DNA from: Futiania mangrovi
GTDB lineage: Bacteria > Pseudomonadota > Alphaproteobacteria > Futianiales > Futianiaceae
Direction of reading: 5' to 3'
DNA: 64,000 bases
Assembly: GCF_024158125.1 (NCBI RefSeq)
Contig: NZ_JAMZFT010000001.1
Coordinates: 186,001-250,000 of the forward strand
This document shows positions 46,752 through 52,751 of the stretch, piece by piece. The position numbers and the translations under genes are program-made. Every line of letters starts with the position of its first letter. Within the stretch, counting starts at the first letter, position 1. The notes under the pieces are model-generated. The model ran no database searches, was not told the DNA's origin, and saw nothing but the letters and a program-made list of their open reading frames with translations.

Positions 46752-47891
46752 ATGGCGCTCACCCGCGTTCAGGACGACCGGACGATTGGCGCCCGCCTGC
46801 TGGAGGTGAACTGGGGCCTGCTGCTGCTGTTGTGCACCGCCGCCGCCATCGGCACGGCGATGCTGTTTTCGGCGGCGGACGGCAGCTTCTCTCCCTGGGC
46901 CGGGCGGCACATCCTGCGTTTCTCGGTGTTCCTGGGCCTGGCGGTCGCGATTGCCGTCATCGACATCCGCTTCTGGATGAAGCTTGCGTATCCGGCCTAT
47001 CTCGTGGCGCTGGTCCTGCTGATCGGTGTGGAGGTCGCGGGCGTGCGCGGCAAGGGTGCCGAGCGCTGGATAGACCTCGGCGTGCTTCAGCTTCAGCCGT
47101 CCGAGATCATGAAGATCGCGCTCGTGATGGCGCTTGCGCGCTATTATCACGGGGTACCCTACGACCGCATCCGCAGCCCGCTGACGCTCGTTGTCCCGGC
47201 GCTGATGGTGCTCGCGCCCGTGGCGCTGGTGCTGCGCCAGCCCGATCTCGGCACAGCGCTGCTGCTGGTGTTCGAAGGGACGGCGCTGGTGCTGGCGGCG
47301 GGCGCAAGCATCTGGCTTTTCGTTGCTGCCGGTGCAGCCGCGGCGGGCTTCGCACCGATCGCCTGGAGCTACCTGAAGGACTATCAGAAGGACCGGATCC
47401 TCACCTTCCTCGATCCCGAGCGCGACCCGATGGGGGCGGGCTATCACATCATCCAGTCGAAGATCGCCTTCGGGTCCGGCGGCGTCTGGGGCCGCGGCTA
47501 CATGCAGGGGCCGCAGAGCCAGCTCGACTTCCTGCCCGAGAAGCAGACCGACTTCGTCTTCACGATGATCGCGGAGGAACTGGGCATGGTCGGGGGCTTG
47601 TGCGTGCTCGCCCTCTATCTGCTGATCGTCGCCTATGCAATCGCGATCGCGCTTCAGGTGCGGCACGTCTTCGGCCGGCTGCTGGCGCTTGGCGTCAGCG
47701 TCGTGATGTTCCTCTACGTCTCGATCAACACGGCGATGGTCATGGGGTTGATCCCGGTGGTCGGGGTGCCGCTGCCGCTTATATCCTACGGCGGAACGTC
47801 TATGCTCACCGTGATGACGGGTTTCGGTTTGCTCATGAGTGCCTATGTCTGGCGCAACGTCGAGATTCCGAGGTATCAATCTCGCCTGTGA
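46752..47891 (+). CDS. rodA: peptidoglycan glycosyltransferase RodA
   Basis: SEDS-family polymerase of 379 residues and about ten membrane helices that makes glycan strands during elongation. Conserved SEDS pieces include RWIDLGVLQLQPSEIMKIAL, VLRQPDLGTALLLVFEG, PEKQTDFVFTMIAEELGMVG and VGVPLPLISYGGTSML. The catalytic-site Asp lies in the ...EKQTDF/QPDLG loops. It is the last classical gene of the mre operon, but transcription may run on into xpaC. Confidence 0.96.
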   Translation: MALTRVQDDRTIGARLLEVNWGLLLLLCTAAAIGTAMLFSAADGSFSPWAGRHILRFSVFLGLAVAIAVIDIRFWMKLAYPAYLVALVLLIGVEVAGVRGKGAERWIDLGVLQLQPSEIMKIALVMALARYYHGVPYDRIRSPLTLVVPALMVLAPVALVLRQPDLGTALLLVFEGTALVLAAGASIWLFVAAGAAAAGFAPIAWSYLKDYQKDRILTFLDPERDPMGAGYHIIQSKIAFGSGGVWGRGYMQGPQSQLDFLPEKQTDFVFTMIAEELGMVGGLCVLALYLLIVAYAIAIALQVRHVFGRLLALGVSVVMFLYVSINTAMVMGLIPVVGVPLPLISYGGTSMLTVMTGFGLLMSAYVWRNVEIPRYQSRL

Positions 47892-47914: not shown

Positions 47915-48010
47915 GTGACGGCCGGATGGATGCGCGCGCTGGGGTTTCTTCTGCTGTTCGGGACGACCGGGCTGTTCTGCCTGCGCGCCATCGGCTCCGC
48001 GGGATTCTGA
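47915..48010 (+). CDS. possible 31-residue single-helix membrane protein
   Basis: A short frame beginning with GTG, preceded by GGGAGGG eight bases upstream, that encodes one hydrophobic helix (LGFLLLFGTTGLFCLRAIG). It fits in the 136-bp space between rodA and xpaC without overlapping either. Small TM peptides at such positions exist, but length alone cannot prove coding; a longer GTG start at 47888 would overlap rodA. Confidence 0.4.
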   Translation: MTAGWMRALGFLLLFGTTGLFCLRAIGSAGF

Positions 48011-48027: not shown

Positions 48028-48858
48028 ATGCCTGAACTCTACACCGGCGACAGGGCGCGCACGCTGGCCAGCAACGCGGTCTGGCTGCACCTGCTGCCCT
48101 TGCCCCTGATCTTCGCGGCGCTGGGATCGCTTGCCGGCGGGCGGCTGGGTGAGCTTGCGCTGGAGGTGTGCGGTTTCGTGGGCCTGATGGCGGGCGCGAT
48201 CCTCGTGCGCCAGGGGCTCGTGCGGGAGCGCGACTACAACCGGCGAACCGTCGCCCGCGCCCCGCGCCTTCCGCGCAAGCTGCTGGGAGCCGCCCTCTAC
48301 GGCGTGTCCACCGGGGCGGTCGTCCTGGCGACGGGCATGGGCCTGAGCGTGGCCGCGGTGGCGGCATCGGGCGCGGCGCTGGGCGTCGCGTTCGTCTATG
48401 GCCTCGATCCGCGCCGAGACAAGGCGGTGCAGGGTGCAGGCGGCGTCACCACGGCGGAGGTCGAGGAGACGGTCAGGACCGCGCTGGCCAAGATCGCGGG
48501 CATCGACGCCGCGGCCCGGCAGATCGGCAACATGGAGTTGCGTGCCCGCCTCGGCCGGATCGCGTCGCGTGCCCGGGACATCGTGGGCGTGCTCGAGAGC
48601 GACCCGAAGGACATCCGCCGCGCGCGCAAGTTCCTGCATGTCTACCTGGACGGCGCGCGCGATGTCGCCGCCAAGTACGCCGCCACCCATGCGCGTGTCG
48701 AGAGCGGGGAACTGGAGGAGAATTTCCGCCGTGTGCTCGAAGGCATGGAAAAGACGTTCGAGGCGCAGCATATGCGGCTTCTGGCTGACGACGTGAACGA
48801 CCTCGACGTCGACCTCGAGGTGTTGCGGCTGAGGCTCAAGGAGGAAGGCGTCGTCTGA
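48028..48858 (+). CDS. XpaC-like (5-bromo-4-chloroindolyl phosphate hydrolysis family) protein
   Basis: 276-residue protein with membrane segments in the first 120 residues (LHLLPLPLIFAALGSLAGG, LCGFVGLMAGAIL-like, AALYGVSTGAVVLATGMGL) and a helical cytoplasmic C-terminal half (SRARDIVGVLESDPKDIRRARKFLHVYL) that matches XpaC. XpaC homologues are almost always paired with TelA, which follows directly here. The exact function is unknown; the pair is linked to toxic-anion and envelope stress tolerance. Start chosen at MPELYTGD. Confidence 0.82.
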   Translation: MPELYTGDRARTLASNAVWLHLLPLPLIFAALGSLAGGRLGELALEVCGFVGLMAGAILVRQGLVRERDYNRRTVARAPRLPRKLLGAALYGVSTGAVVLATGMGLSVAAVAASGAALGVAFVYGLDPRRDKAVQGAGGVTTAEVEETVRTALAKIAGIDAAARQIGNMELRARLGRIASRARDIVGVLESDPKDIRRARKFLHVYLDGARDVAAKYAATHARVESGELEENFRRVLEGMEKTFEAQHMRLLADDVNDLDVDLEVLRLRLKEEGVV

Positions 48859-48924
48859 CGGGCGGGCCGTCGGGGGGCGGGTAAATGGATCGCGCCTTGT
48901 GCGCTGGTAGAGGAGGCTGGGTAG

Positions 48925-50055
48925 ATGGCTGACCGGATCGAAACCGCCGAGACGGAGTTGCGCGACGCGCTGGCTCCGCTGTCCGAGATCAAGGCCGAGA
49001 TCGTCCCTGCCGAGGCGACGCCGGAAGAGAACGCGCGCATCGCCCAGATCGCCGCGGCCATCGACCTGAGCAACTCCAACGCCATCGTGACCTTCGGGGC
49101 AGAGGCGCAGGAGAAGCTGACCGACATCTCCGACCAGATGCTGGGCGACGTGCGGAACAAGGACACCGGGCCCGCGGGCGACGCGATCCGCCGCGTTGTC
49201 ACCGCGATGCGCGGCTTCGACGTCGAAGGGCTGAAGAACAAGCAGGGCTGGCTTGCCCGGCTGTTCCGCCTCGCCGACCCGCTGGTCCAGTTCGCCCAGA
49301 AGTTCGAAGGCGTGCAGAAGCAGATCGATACGATCACGATCGAGCTGGAAGGCCACAAGACCAAGCTGATGAAGGATGTGGTCGCGCTCGACCGGCTCTA
49401 CGACGCGACGCGCGACTATTACCACGAGCTTGCGCTCTACATTGCGGCGGGCGAGCAGCGGCTGGCCACCCTCGACAAGGAGGAGCTGCCGGCGCTGGAG
49501 GCGGCGGCGAAAGCCTCGGGAGAGATGCTGGACGCGCAGAAGGTGCGCGACCTGCGCGCCGCGCGCGACGACCTGGAGCGGCGCGTCCACGACCTGAAGC
49601 TGACCCGCCAGGTCACGATGCAGTCCATGCCGTCGATCCGCCTCGTGCAGGAGAACGACAAGGGCCTCATCACCAAGATCAACTCGACCATCGCCAACAC
49701 GGTCCCGCTGTGGAAGCAGCAGATCGCGCAGGCCCTGACCATCCAGCGCTCGCGCCAGGCGGCGGCGAGCGTGAAGCAGGCGACGGACCTGACGAACGAG
49801 CTTCTGACCGCGACGTCGGAGACACTGGGGATCGCCAACCGCGAGGTGCGCACGCAGCTTGAGCGCGGCATCGTCGACATCGAGACGCTGAAGAAGGCGA
49901 ACGACGCGCTGATCGGCACCATCAACGACGCGCTCAACATCGCCGACGAGGGGCGCAAGAAGCGGGCCGAGGCCGAGACGCAGTTGAAGGTCATGGAAGA
50001 GGAACTGAAGCGCACGCTCGCCGCCGCGAAGGCGCGCACGGGAACGGGCAGCTGA
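48925..50055 (+). CDS. telA: TelA family toxic anion resistance protein
   Basis: 376-residue, almost wholly helical soluble protein of the TelA (YceH) family, named for tellurite resistance. Family-type segments include SNAIVTFGAEAQEKLTDISDQML, FRLADPLVQFAQKFEGVQ and the central VTMQSMPSIRLVQENDKGLI. The C-terminal helix pair ends with an Arg/Lys/Glu-rich tail. It pairs with the XpaC-like gene 66 bp upstream and precedes an SPFH gene. No ter genes (terB-F) are in the window, so tellurite tolerance itself is not implied. Confidence 0.9.
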   Translation: MADRIETAETELRDALAPLSEIKAEIVPAEATPEENARIAQIAAAIDLSNSNAIVTFGAEAQEKLTDISDQMLGDVRNKDTGPAGDAIRRVVTAMRGFDVEGLKNKQGWLARLFRLADPLVQFAQKFEGVQKQIDTITIELEGHKTKLMKDVVALDRLYDATRDYYHELALYIAAGEQRLATLDKEELPALEAAAKASGEMLDAQKVRDLRAARDDLERRVHDLKLTRQVTMQSMPSIRLVQENDKGLITKINSTIANTVPLWKQQIAQALTIQRSRQAAASVKQATDLTNELLTATSETLGIANREVRTQLERGIVDIETLKKANDALIGTINDALNIADEGRKKRAEAETQLKVMEEELKRTLAAAKARTGTGS

Positions 50056-50089
50056 GCGGCGCGGCAGCGTACCGGACGGGAGGAACGAC

Positions 50090-51223
50090 ATGAGCCTTTG
50101 GGACCGCCTGATGGGCGAGTTCATCGACGTCATCGACTGGGTCGATTCGTCGAACGACACGATGGTCTGGCGGTTCGAGCGGCACGGCAACGAGATCAAG
50201 TACGGCGCAAAGCTGACCGTACGGGAGGGGCAGACGGCGGTCTTCGTGAACGAGGGCAGGCTAGCCGACGTTTTCCCGCCGGGCATGTATTTGCTCGAGA
50301 CCAAGAACCTGCCGATCCTCTCGACCATCCTGCACTGGGACCACGGCTTCCAGAGCCCGTTCAAGGCCGAGGTCTATTTCGTCAGCACGCGGCGGTTCAC
50401 GGACCTCAAGTGGGGCACCAAGAACCCGATCATGTTGCGCGATGCAGAGTTCGGGCCGGTGCGGCTCCGGGCCTTCGGCACCTACGAGGTGCGCGTCGCC
50501 GACCCGACCCGCTTCCTGCGGGAGATCGTCGGCACCGACGGCCACTTCACGACGGACGAACTGACCGACCAGCTGCGCAACCTGATCGTGTCGCGCTTCG
50601 CGACCGTGCTGGGGGCCTCGGGCATTCCGGCGCTCGACCTCGCCGCGAACTACCAGACGCTCGGCCGCTATGTGACGGACAAGATCGCGGGCGATTTCCT
50701 CGCCTATGGCATCGAGCTGACCAATCTGCTCGTGGAGAACGTGTCGCTGCCGCCGGAGGTGGAGGCGGCGCTGGACCGGCGCACCAGCATGGGGGTGGTG
50801 GGCGATCTCGACCGCTACACGCGCTTCCAGTCGGCGGAGGCGCTGAGAACCGCGGCGGCCAATCCGGGCGGTGCGGCGGGTGCGGGCGTCGGCATCGGCG
50901 CGGGCGTCGCCATGGGCCAGACGATGGGCGCCGCCCTCGGCGGGGCCGCGCCCTGGGGTGCGCGGTCTGCGCCGCAGCAGCCCGCCGCAACGCCGCCGCC
51001 ACCGCCGCCGCCGCCCGCGGGGCCGGTTTTCTGGATCGCCGCGAAAGGGGAGCGGCAGGGCCCCTTCGACATGGGCACGCTCAAGGGACTGGCGCGCGAG
51101 GGCAAGCTCACGCCCGACACGCTGGTCTGGACCGACGGCATGGAGGGCTGGGAGAAGGCCAGCGCCGCGCCCTCGCTGAGCGTCCTGTTCGGCGCCATGC
51201 CGCCGCCCTTGCCGGGGGCGTGA
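50090..51223 (+). CDS. SPFH-domain protein with C-terminal GYF_2 domain (YdjI-like)
   Basis: 377-residue protein. The first 250 residues are a virion-core/SPFH domain (QTAVFVNEGRLADVFPPGMYLLET, RDAEFGPVRLRAFGTYEVRV) of the B. subtilis YdjI type, without a membrane anchor. A Gly/Ala/Pro linker with a PPPPPPPPAG run leads to a GYF_2 domain (FWIAAKGERQGPFDMGTLKGL and VWTDGMEGWEKAS). GYF_2 domains bind peptides or membranes. In B. subtilis the relative lies in the pspA-linked ydj operon; here it follows telA and precedes a zinc-ribbon gene. Confidence 0.85.
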   Translation: MSLWDRLMGEFIDVIDWVDSSNDTMVWRFERHGNEIKYGAKLTVREGQTAVFVNEGRLADVFPPGMYLLETKNLPILSTILHWDHGFQSPFKAEVYFVSTRRFTDLKWGTKNPIMLRDAEFGPVRLRAFGTYEVRVADPTRFLREIVGTDGHFTTDELTDQLRNLIVSRFATVLGASGIPALDLAANYQTLGRYVTDKIAGDFLAYGIELTNLLVENVSLPPEVEAALDRRTSMGVVGDLDRYTRFQSAEALRTAAANPGGAAGAGVGIGAGVAMGQTMGAALGGAAPWGARSAPQQPAATPPPPPPPPAGPVFWIAAKGERQGPFDMGTLKGLAREGKLTPDTLVWTDGMEGWEKASAAPSLSVLFGAMPPPLPGA

Positions 51224-51236
51224 CGCGGGAGGCCGC

Positions 51237-52349
51237 ATGACCGACGCGGCGGAGGAGGGCAGGCGCTTCCCCTGCGCCATGTGCGGGGCGAAGCTCGCCT
51301 ATGCGCCCGGCACCGAGGTGCTCGCCTGCGCCTATTGCGGGCACGAGAACCGGATCGCGGCACGGGGAAGCGTCGAGGAACTGGACTATCTCGCGGGCCT
51401 GCGCGACCTCGCCGCGACCGTCCCGACGGAGGAGCGGCGAACCGTCAAGTGCGACGCCTGCGCGGCGAGCTTCGAGTTCGATCCGAAGCTGCACGCAAGC
51501 GCTTGTCCCTTTTGCGGCAGTCCGATCGTCGTCGCGCCGACGCTCACCCGCGTGTTCCAGCCGCAGGGCGTGCTGCCGTTCCAGATCGCGGAGCGCGATG
51601 CGCGCGCCGCGCTCAAGACATGGCTCGGCTCGCGCTGGTTCGCGCCCAATTCCCTGGCGACTGCAGCCGAACAAAACGGTTCGCTGTCCGGGCTCTACGT
51701 GCCGTTCTGGACCTATGACTCGCAGACGGCAACGGCTTATACCGGGCAGCGGGGCGATGCCTATTGGGTAACGCAAACCGTCACGGTGAACGTCAACGGC
51801 AAACCCCAGCGCCAGACCCGGCGCGTGCGCAAGATCCGCTGGACACCGGTCAGCGGCCGCGTGGCGCGCGCCTTCGACGACGTTCTGGTGGTGGCGAGCC
51901 ACAGCCTGCCGCGCCGATATGTCGAGGCGCTGGCGCCCTGGCCGCTCGGCGCGGTGAAGCCCTATGACGCGGCGTGGCTCGCGGGCTACCGGGCGGAAAC
52001 CTACCAGGTCGCGCTCGACGACGGGTTCGAGGACGCGCGCCACCAGATGGACGCGGTGATCCGCGGCGACATCCGGCGCGACATCGGCGGCGACGCCCAG
52101 CGCATCGGCCACGTCGACACGCGCCATGCGAACGTGACCTTCAAGCAGGTCCTCTTGCCCGTGTGGATGGCCGCCTACCGTCACGGCGGCAAGAGCTATC
52201 GTTTCATGGTCAATGCCGCGACCGGCGAGGTGCAGGGGGAGCGTCCCTATTCCTGGGTGAAGATCGCGCTCGCCGCGGCAGCCGCGCTGGTCGCGGCGGG
52301 CATCCTCGCCATGGTCTATGCCGGGGGCGGGTTCGAGGGGCTGAACTAG
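51237..52349 (+). CDS. zinc-ribbon membrane protein (YdjG-like)
   Basis: 370-residue protein with two zinc-ribbon pairs: CAMCGAKL...CAYCGHEN at residues 13-40 and CDACAASF...CPFCGSPI at about 80-100, like TFIIB-type ribbons. A long central domain with aromatic residues (LSGLYVPFWTYDSQTATAY) is followed by one C-terminal membrane helix (IALAAAAALVAAGILAMVYAG), so most of the chain is probably cytoplasmic. In B. subtilis ydjG-ydjH-ydjI a similar protein accompanies the SPFH protein. It converges on tusA with a four-base overlap. Confidence 0.82.
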   Translation: MTDAAEEGRRFPCAMCGAKLAYAPGTEVLACAYCGHENRIAARGSVEELDYLAGLRDLAATVPTEERRTVKCDACAASFEFDPKLHASACPFCGSPIVVAPTLTRVFQPQGVLPFQIAERDARAALKTWLGSRWFAPNSLATAAEQNGSLSGLYVPFWTYDSQTATAYTGQRGDAYWVTQTVTVNVNGKPQRQTRRVRKIRWTPVSGRVARAFDDVLVVASHSLPRRYVEALAPWPLGAVKPYDAAWLAGYRAETYQVALDDGFEDARHQMDAVIRGDIRRDIGGDAQRIGHVDTRHANVTFKQVLLPVWMAAYRHGGKSYRFMVNAATGEVQGERPYSWVKIALAAAAALVAAGILAMVYAGGGFEGLN

Positions 52350-52573
52350 CCCTTCACGCAGCGCAGGACGAAGACGAGCGTGTCGCCCTCCTCGCGCTGC
52401 TCGACCAGTTCATGTCCGCTGGTGTCGCAATAGTGCGGGAAGTCGATGCGCGCGGCCGGGTCGGTGGCGAGCACGGTCAGCAGCGCGCCGGGCGCAAGGC
52501 TGCCCATCCTCTTGCGCGCCTTCAGAACCGGAAGCGGGCATTGCAGCCCGCGCACGTCGAGCGTTTCGGTCAT
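52346..52573 (-). CDS. tusA: TusA-family sulfurtransferase
   Basis: 75-residue sulfur carrier. The active-site Cys12 lies in the LQCPLPVLKA motif that defines the family. The start MTETLDVRG has AAGGACGG upstream. TusA passes persulfide sulfur to tRNA thiolation, and in E. coli also affects molybdenum cofactor enzymes. It is placed beside a formate dehydrogenase/cofactor cluster that needs sulfur delivery (FdhD), though on the opposite strand. Other small sulfurtransferases of the same fold cannot be separated by sequence alone. Confidence 0.88.
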   Translation of the reverse strand: MTETLDVRGLQCPLPVLKARKRMGSLAPGALLTVLATDPAARIDFPHYCDTSGHELVEQREEGDTLVFVLRCVKG

Positions 52574-52751
52574 CTTCCGTCCTTGAGCCTCGCCTGCAAG
52601 CTGGCATGCTGTCCGTCTATGCCACGGGCGGCGCAGACGCGAAAAGAGGGCGCGTGCGCACCGCGACATGTCGCTCGTGCGATGGCCGGGACGGACGGCT
52701 TGTGCGTGTTATCTTCATGGCCAACGCACCGGCGGAAAATACTTGGAACGC

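Follow-up and report, generated by a model that had tools for sequence, protein, structure and literature searches.

A conserved XpaC-TelA-SPFH-zinc ribbon operon in Proteobacteria, with a putative single-pass micropeptide upstream of XpaC

In Alpha- and Gammaproteobacteria, genes for XpaC- and TelA-like proteins stand in one operon with genes for an SPFH protein and a zinc ribbon protein (ZnR), and the operon appears to start with an overlooked gene for a membrane micropeptide. This combination and the micropeptide appear to be new; the Bacillus YdjI/YdjG/YdjH/PspA module and the XpaC-TelA pair were known already. We propose, with confidence evenly balanced for and against, that Proteobacteria possess a PspA-independent envelope-maintenance complex of SPFH-ZnR and XpaC-TelA, and that the first gene of its operon belongs to an unnamed family of ~28-aa single-pass peptides, which would be dedicated partners of XpaC.

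Composition and conservation of the operon

The operon was analysed in a window of 64,000 nucleotides from Futiania mangrovi (contig NZ_JAMZFT010000001.1, positions 186,001 to 250,000). The first-pass annotation had placed XpaC, TelA, SPFH/GYF_2 and zinc ribbon genes on one strand between positions 48028 and 52349. Pfam matches, with the PF10112 and PF05816 genes adjacent to each other, and invariant cysteines in the last protein bear this out (Table 1). The number of genes is probably five rather than four, since a small ORF sits between rodA and xpaC. Gaps measure 23 bp between rodA and this ORF, 17 bp from there to xpaC, 66 bp to telA, 34 bp to the SPFH gene and 13 bp to the ZnR gene; a TusA-family gene overlapping the end of the latter by 4 bp marks the end of the operon. 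TelA and Band_7_1 are encoded by one copy each in the whole genome, and PF13421 was found in the B. subtilis control genome too. A role in anti-phage defence was considered and discarded, as PADLOC gave no match of note.

Table 1. Coordinates of the operon and its flanking genes, counted from the first nucleotide of the window
Feature	Position	Strand	Family matches and remarks
rodA	46752..47891	+	TIGR02210 (1e-121), PF01098 (2e-96); context, last gene of the mreBCD-pbp2-rodA cluster
Putative 31-aa single-TM micropeptide VTAGWMRALGFLLLFGTTGLFCLRAIGSAGF	47915..48010	+	GTG start, inner ATG at 47930, GGGAGGG before the GTG
xpaC-like gene	48028..48858	+	PF10112 (6.4e-32); aligned with 8 homologues
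telA-like gene	48925..50055	+	PF05816 (2.2e-111)
Gene for YdjI-type SPFH (Band_7_1) protein	50090..51223	+	PF13421 (1.2e-101); proline-rich linker, C-terminal GYF_2
GYF_2 domain of the SPFH protein, residues 315-363	51032..51178	+	PF14237 (2e-15)
YdjG-type double zinc ribbon protein, one C-terminal TM helix	51237..52349	+	
TusA-family gene	52346..52669	-	PF01206 (4.7e-22); convergent

XpaC has a hydrophobic N-terminal half, which likely forms two TM hairpins, and a helical cytosolic domain. TelA is all-helical in an AlphaFold2 model of moderate confidence (pLDDT 70.6), with two very long successive helices (residues 119-198 and 201-312). Its best structural matches are ClyA-type helical bundles (Z < 13), which may reflect the long helices only and stay under the tool's specific-Z for long helices; a PspA/ESCRT-III fold was not adopted for TelA, as the matches listed include none to it. 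In the SPFH protein, the presence of GYF_2 beside a proline-rich linker suggests self-association.

The zinc ribbon protein gave no Pfam domain over the cut-off. It contains two CxxC..CxxC pairs (Cys 13/16/31/34 and 72/75/90/93), invariant in 45 homologues, and its model (pLDDT 89.8) shows the two ribbons followed by a domain whose strands are ~30 residues long and by a C-terminal helix (340-362) of hydrophobic sequence. This predicted layout, together with the hydrophobic helix, suggests a tail-anchored cytosolic protein. Strands predicted for the middle domain (residues 150-330) are unusually long, up to 36 residues; a Foldseek search with the whole model returned no confident PDB match for this beta domain (E-value 0.02 at best), and VIA matches of the model fall mostly on ribbon 1, with Z <= 3.5.

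An alignment of the zinc ribbon protein, scanned against 84,980 species, revealed at least 586 relatives, of which the best 80 went into the comparison; these are the closest relatives and not a random sample. Gene order was counted in the 67 loci that extend 5.4 kb or more upstream of the ZnR gene. XpaC, TelA, SPFH and zinc ribbon genes follow one another in the same order and on the same strand in 62 of these 67 loci, drawn from the best 80 of at least 586 relatives. Among the hosts of the 80 loci are Rhodobacteraceae, Geminicoccaceae, Competibacteraceae, Methylococcaceae, Granulosicoccus and Thiothrix. The exceptions are two loci with SPFH-ZnR and no XpaC/TelA (L059, L062), two with ZnR alone (L056, L104) and one with a broken TelA and XpaC missing (L063). 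TelA as such is uncommon in Alphaproteobacteria (24 of 289 sampled genomes over the cut-off), and the window genome is the sole member of its GTDB family in the comparison set. The neighbourhood survey supports the earlier supposition of an under-described module of the membrane-stress type, which is real and conserved.

Some loci carry additional genes. A gene for a DUF2927 lipoprotein (PF11150, 2e-55) lies between telA and the SPFH gene in 57 loci and is usual in Rhodobacterales (e.g. L126:5991-6950); the lipoprotein might serve the complex as a periplasmic arm. In one Competibacteraceae locus (L054), a gene of ~365 aa starting with MSIWTLTALALFLVLF lies between the SPFH and ZnR genes, and a relative of it is found near the lone ZnR gene of L104, also from Competibacteraceae.

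In open-licence papers, searches for TelA with XpaC and SPFH, for TelA with YdjI and for small membrane proteins associated with these families gave nothing relevant, and no experiments on any member of the XpaC-TelA-SPFH-zinc ribbon operon were found there. TelA and XpaC are mentioned in neither of two PSP surveys. An earlier description may exist outside the open-licence literature.

A small membrane ORF upstream of XpaC

Just upstream of xpaC, 69 of 72 related regions contain a small ORF with a single TM segment, typically of ~24-34 aa. Markov-resampled regions yielded a mean of 4.1 by chance (maximum 10), and on the reverse strand a TM micro-ORF was seen in 2 of the 72 regions. When pairs were selected solely by TelA identity (27 pairs), the micropeptide showed a pN/pS of 0.42 with synonymous sites near saturation; this replaces an earlier dN/dS of 0.22, which was biased by the filtering of pairs on pN. 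Variability is lowest at the second codon position, higher at the first and highest at the third. Such a pattern of substitutions is as expected of a micro-ORF that is translated and under purifying selection. Micropeptides from Rhodobacteraceae resemble MSxxxLQKIAFVLLxLMFGVxTGWLGGL and those from Gammaproteobacteria resemble MPKPFQRVIGFIILLSTVGMLSCQALVQG; no fitting Pfam or NCBIfam family was found. A second genome survey, whose loci are in part those of the first set, recovered the micro-ORF ahead of cassette-type XpaC as well.

The ORF of the window, at 47915-48010, has 31 codons and one hydrophobic segment, ends 17 bp before xpaC and lies within the 24-40 aa range set for such micro-ORFs. 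Its score against an HMM of the other family copies is not significant, and for this reason its assignment as a putative member of the family is based on position, length, topology and ribosome-binding site. The non-significant score and the very short length would also suit a leader or spacer that is not a protein at all, with an incidental hydrophobic reading. Against this stand the recurrence in the sense direction far above the chance level, the scarcity on the reverse strand, and the synonymous excess with its ordering of codon positions, and we regard a mere leader or spacer as highly improbable.

The operon of plasmid pFER4, which lacks xpaC, also lacks the micropeptide. In at least four genomes (loci L082:3822, L085:3336, L100:4139 and L111:4083) a further, diverged XpaC paralogue is located directly upstream of the cassette, and ahead of it lies a small ORF that ends in a TM segment (..KLAFVALWLLIFSLSY). 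This suggests that micropeptide and XpaC are duplicated together.

Surroundings of the operon: rodA, PspA and Ter genes

From the position of the operon behind rodA, the first-pass annotation had derived a coupling of envelope stress sensing to cell elongation. This adjacency is not conserved. Among the best 80 of at least 586 relatives, mre genes flank one locus only (L102, Aliiroseovarius), in convergent orientation and 2.8 kb off; chance would give ~0.3 loci by our own estimate for 62 loci, 20-kb windows and 4-Mb genomes. In the other cassette genomes that were looked up, rodA lies 115 kb (G130) or ~470 kb (G153) away or on another contig. For the full cassette, the association was thus confined to this genome, and rodA coupling was rejected as a conserved feature. 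Given these distances, the adjacency is best read as local and peculiar to the window genome.

In that genome alone, co-transcription with rodA is plausible from the arrangement of the genes, because the gap to the micro-ORF is only 23 bp; no promoter or terminator match was found in this gap. One may go further and see an accessory operon of the rod complex, co-transcribed with mreBCD-pbp2-rodA and tuning the placement of the elongasome. Both the narrow gap and the missing promoter or terminator match would fit, as would the mislocalised wall synthesis seen on loss of YdjG/H in B. subtilis (PMC8581546) and the listing of L. lactis rodA in the same response as xpaC/telA (PMC3139573). The remoteness of rodA in other cassette genomes and the single, convergent mre neighbour nevertheless render such an accessory role quite improbable. 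In two genomes of one genus from another family (L031, L032), a TelA gene is found ~1.7 kb from rodA; it is on the opposite strand, convergent and without SPFH/ZnR, which does not favour the accessory role either. A functional tie to wall synthesis may exist by analogy, whatever the gene order, since the B. subtilis phenotype points to one. A search of open-licence papers on GltJ, GYF and MreB found nothing.

The first-pass annotation had further noted that terB-F and pspA are missing. This is true of the locus, and neither PspA nor a TerD-family protein, nor a TPM-domain protein (YdjH), was found in the whole window genome. It is not true of ter genes in the genome as a whole, because there is one TerC gene at another site (G000 C1:1142808), ~0.9 Mb from the cassette. 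The absence of PspA was rejected as a sign of its replacement: PspA is present in 48 of 289 sampled Alphaproteobacteria (~84% are without it) and in a similar fraction of cassette genomes (7 of 30, missing from 23), so its absence is uninformative.

The main alternative to membrane maintenance is metal handling linked to TerC. XpaC-TelA would then act with TerC either in metal handling, be it Mn export or metalation of secreted enzymes, or in oxyanion resistance, and SPFH-ZnR would scaffold this machinery. Indeed, ~17 Rhodobacteraceae loci (e.g. L040:6924-7751) have a TerC gene immediately before the micropeptide and xpaC, B. subtilis yceCDEFGH unites TerC and TelA genes (PMC3498285), and TerC proteins metalate exoenzymes (PMC10550928). 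However, most cassettes have no adjacent TerC, the gammaproteobacterial operons listed show none, and in the window genome TerC is remote and TerD missing. We therefore consider a Ter-type function unlikely.

A proposed membrane scaffold and its relation to known modules

That the related Bacillus genes belong to membrane stress, as had been stated at the outset, agrees with the literature. The xpaC-yaaN and pspA-ydjGHI genes of B. subtilis form separate operons, both of the sigmaW regulon (PMC3498285; see also PMC8581546), and in L. lactis overproduction of membrane proteins induces xpaC 10.3-fold and telA1 3.4-fold (PMC3139573). Disruption of TelA in Listeria raises nisin sensitivity, according to work cited in PMC12791056.

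Along its full length, the window zinc ribbon protein shows homology to a counterpart from Enterococcus gallinarum (24% identity, 2e-34), where on pK205-4a-A the SPFH-ZnR pair is followed by a TPM gene. Its assignment to the YdjG type rests on the layout and on the place of the Enterococcus gene, which is flanked by genes for SPFH and TPM proteins. Given this homology and the YdjI-YdjG-YdjH layout described for Bacillus (PMC11237479), the operon would join XpaC-TelA to a YdjI/YdjG core, so that the counterparts of two separate B. subtilis operons are physically joined here. SPFH-ZnR pairs without XpaC/TelA occur in Vibrio, Comamonas and Tsukamurella plasmids. These lone pairs, the TPM partner in Enterococcus and the full-length ZnR homology lead us to view SPFH-ZnR as a widespread core of two genes whose partners can be exchanged: PspA and TPM in Bacillus, TPM in Enterococcus, XpaC and TelA in the window operon, and none nearby in other cases.

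We suggest, considering it about equally probable to be right or wrong, that the operon encodes a membrane-maintenance scaffold in which XpaC-TelA stand in place of TPM-PspA. A tail anchor would fix the zinc-ribbon protein in the inner membrane, leaving its ribbons and long-beta domain on the cytosolic side. The protein would recruit the TM-less SPFH protein, which would form an oligomeric scaffold at the inner leaflet, much as B. subtilis YdjI requires YdjG/H for its membrane localisation (PMC8581546). XpaC, an integral membrane protein, would take the place of YdjH (TPM) as a second anchor, and TelA that of PspA as a long-helix cytosolic partner with a remodelling or stabilising role. The micropeptide would probably bind or regulate XpaC in the membrane.

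TelA and XpaC, envelope-stress proteins of wide distribution, lack a mechanism; a fixed operon with a YdjI/YdjG pair names partners for them. It also makes the TelA/XpaC question testable in the genetically easy Rhodobacteraceae, where the micropeptide offers a small, testable handle on XpaC.

Among known systems, the 'toxic anion resistance - DUF2927 - SPFH - zinc ribbon' operons of Rhodobacteraceae, such as that of Paracoccus ferrooxidans pFER4, are of the same type. They differ from the window operon in the DUF2927 lipoprotein gene inserted between telA and the SPFH gene and, in pFER4, in the missing xpaC and micropeptide. The XpaC-TelA pairs of B. subtilis (xpaC-yaaN, yceG-yceH), L. lactis (llmg_1115-telA1) and L. 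monocytogenes (lmo1966-1967) unite the same two Pfam families in adjacent genes, but in the cited operons without SPFH/ZnR, whereas the window pair is joined by these and by the micropeptide. The E. gallinarum trio shares with the window an SPFH gene adjoining a full-length ZnR homologue; its third gene is TPM, XpaC/TelA are absent and its SPFH protein ends in a zinc ribbon. Finally, B. subtilis pspA-ydjG-ydjH-ydjI (PMC8581546, PMC11237479) resembles the window operon in having a Band_7_1 SPFH protein without a TM segment of its own, as well as a protein that combines two zinc ribbons with a further domain and a single TM segment. In contrast to it, the window operon has neither pspA nor a TPM (ydjH) gene, its SPFH protein ends in GYF_2 and not in a C-terminal zinc ribbon, and XpaC, TelA and the micropeptide are added.
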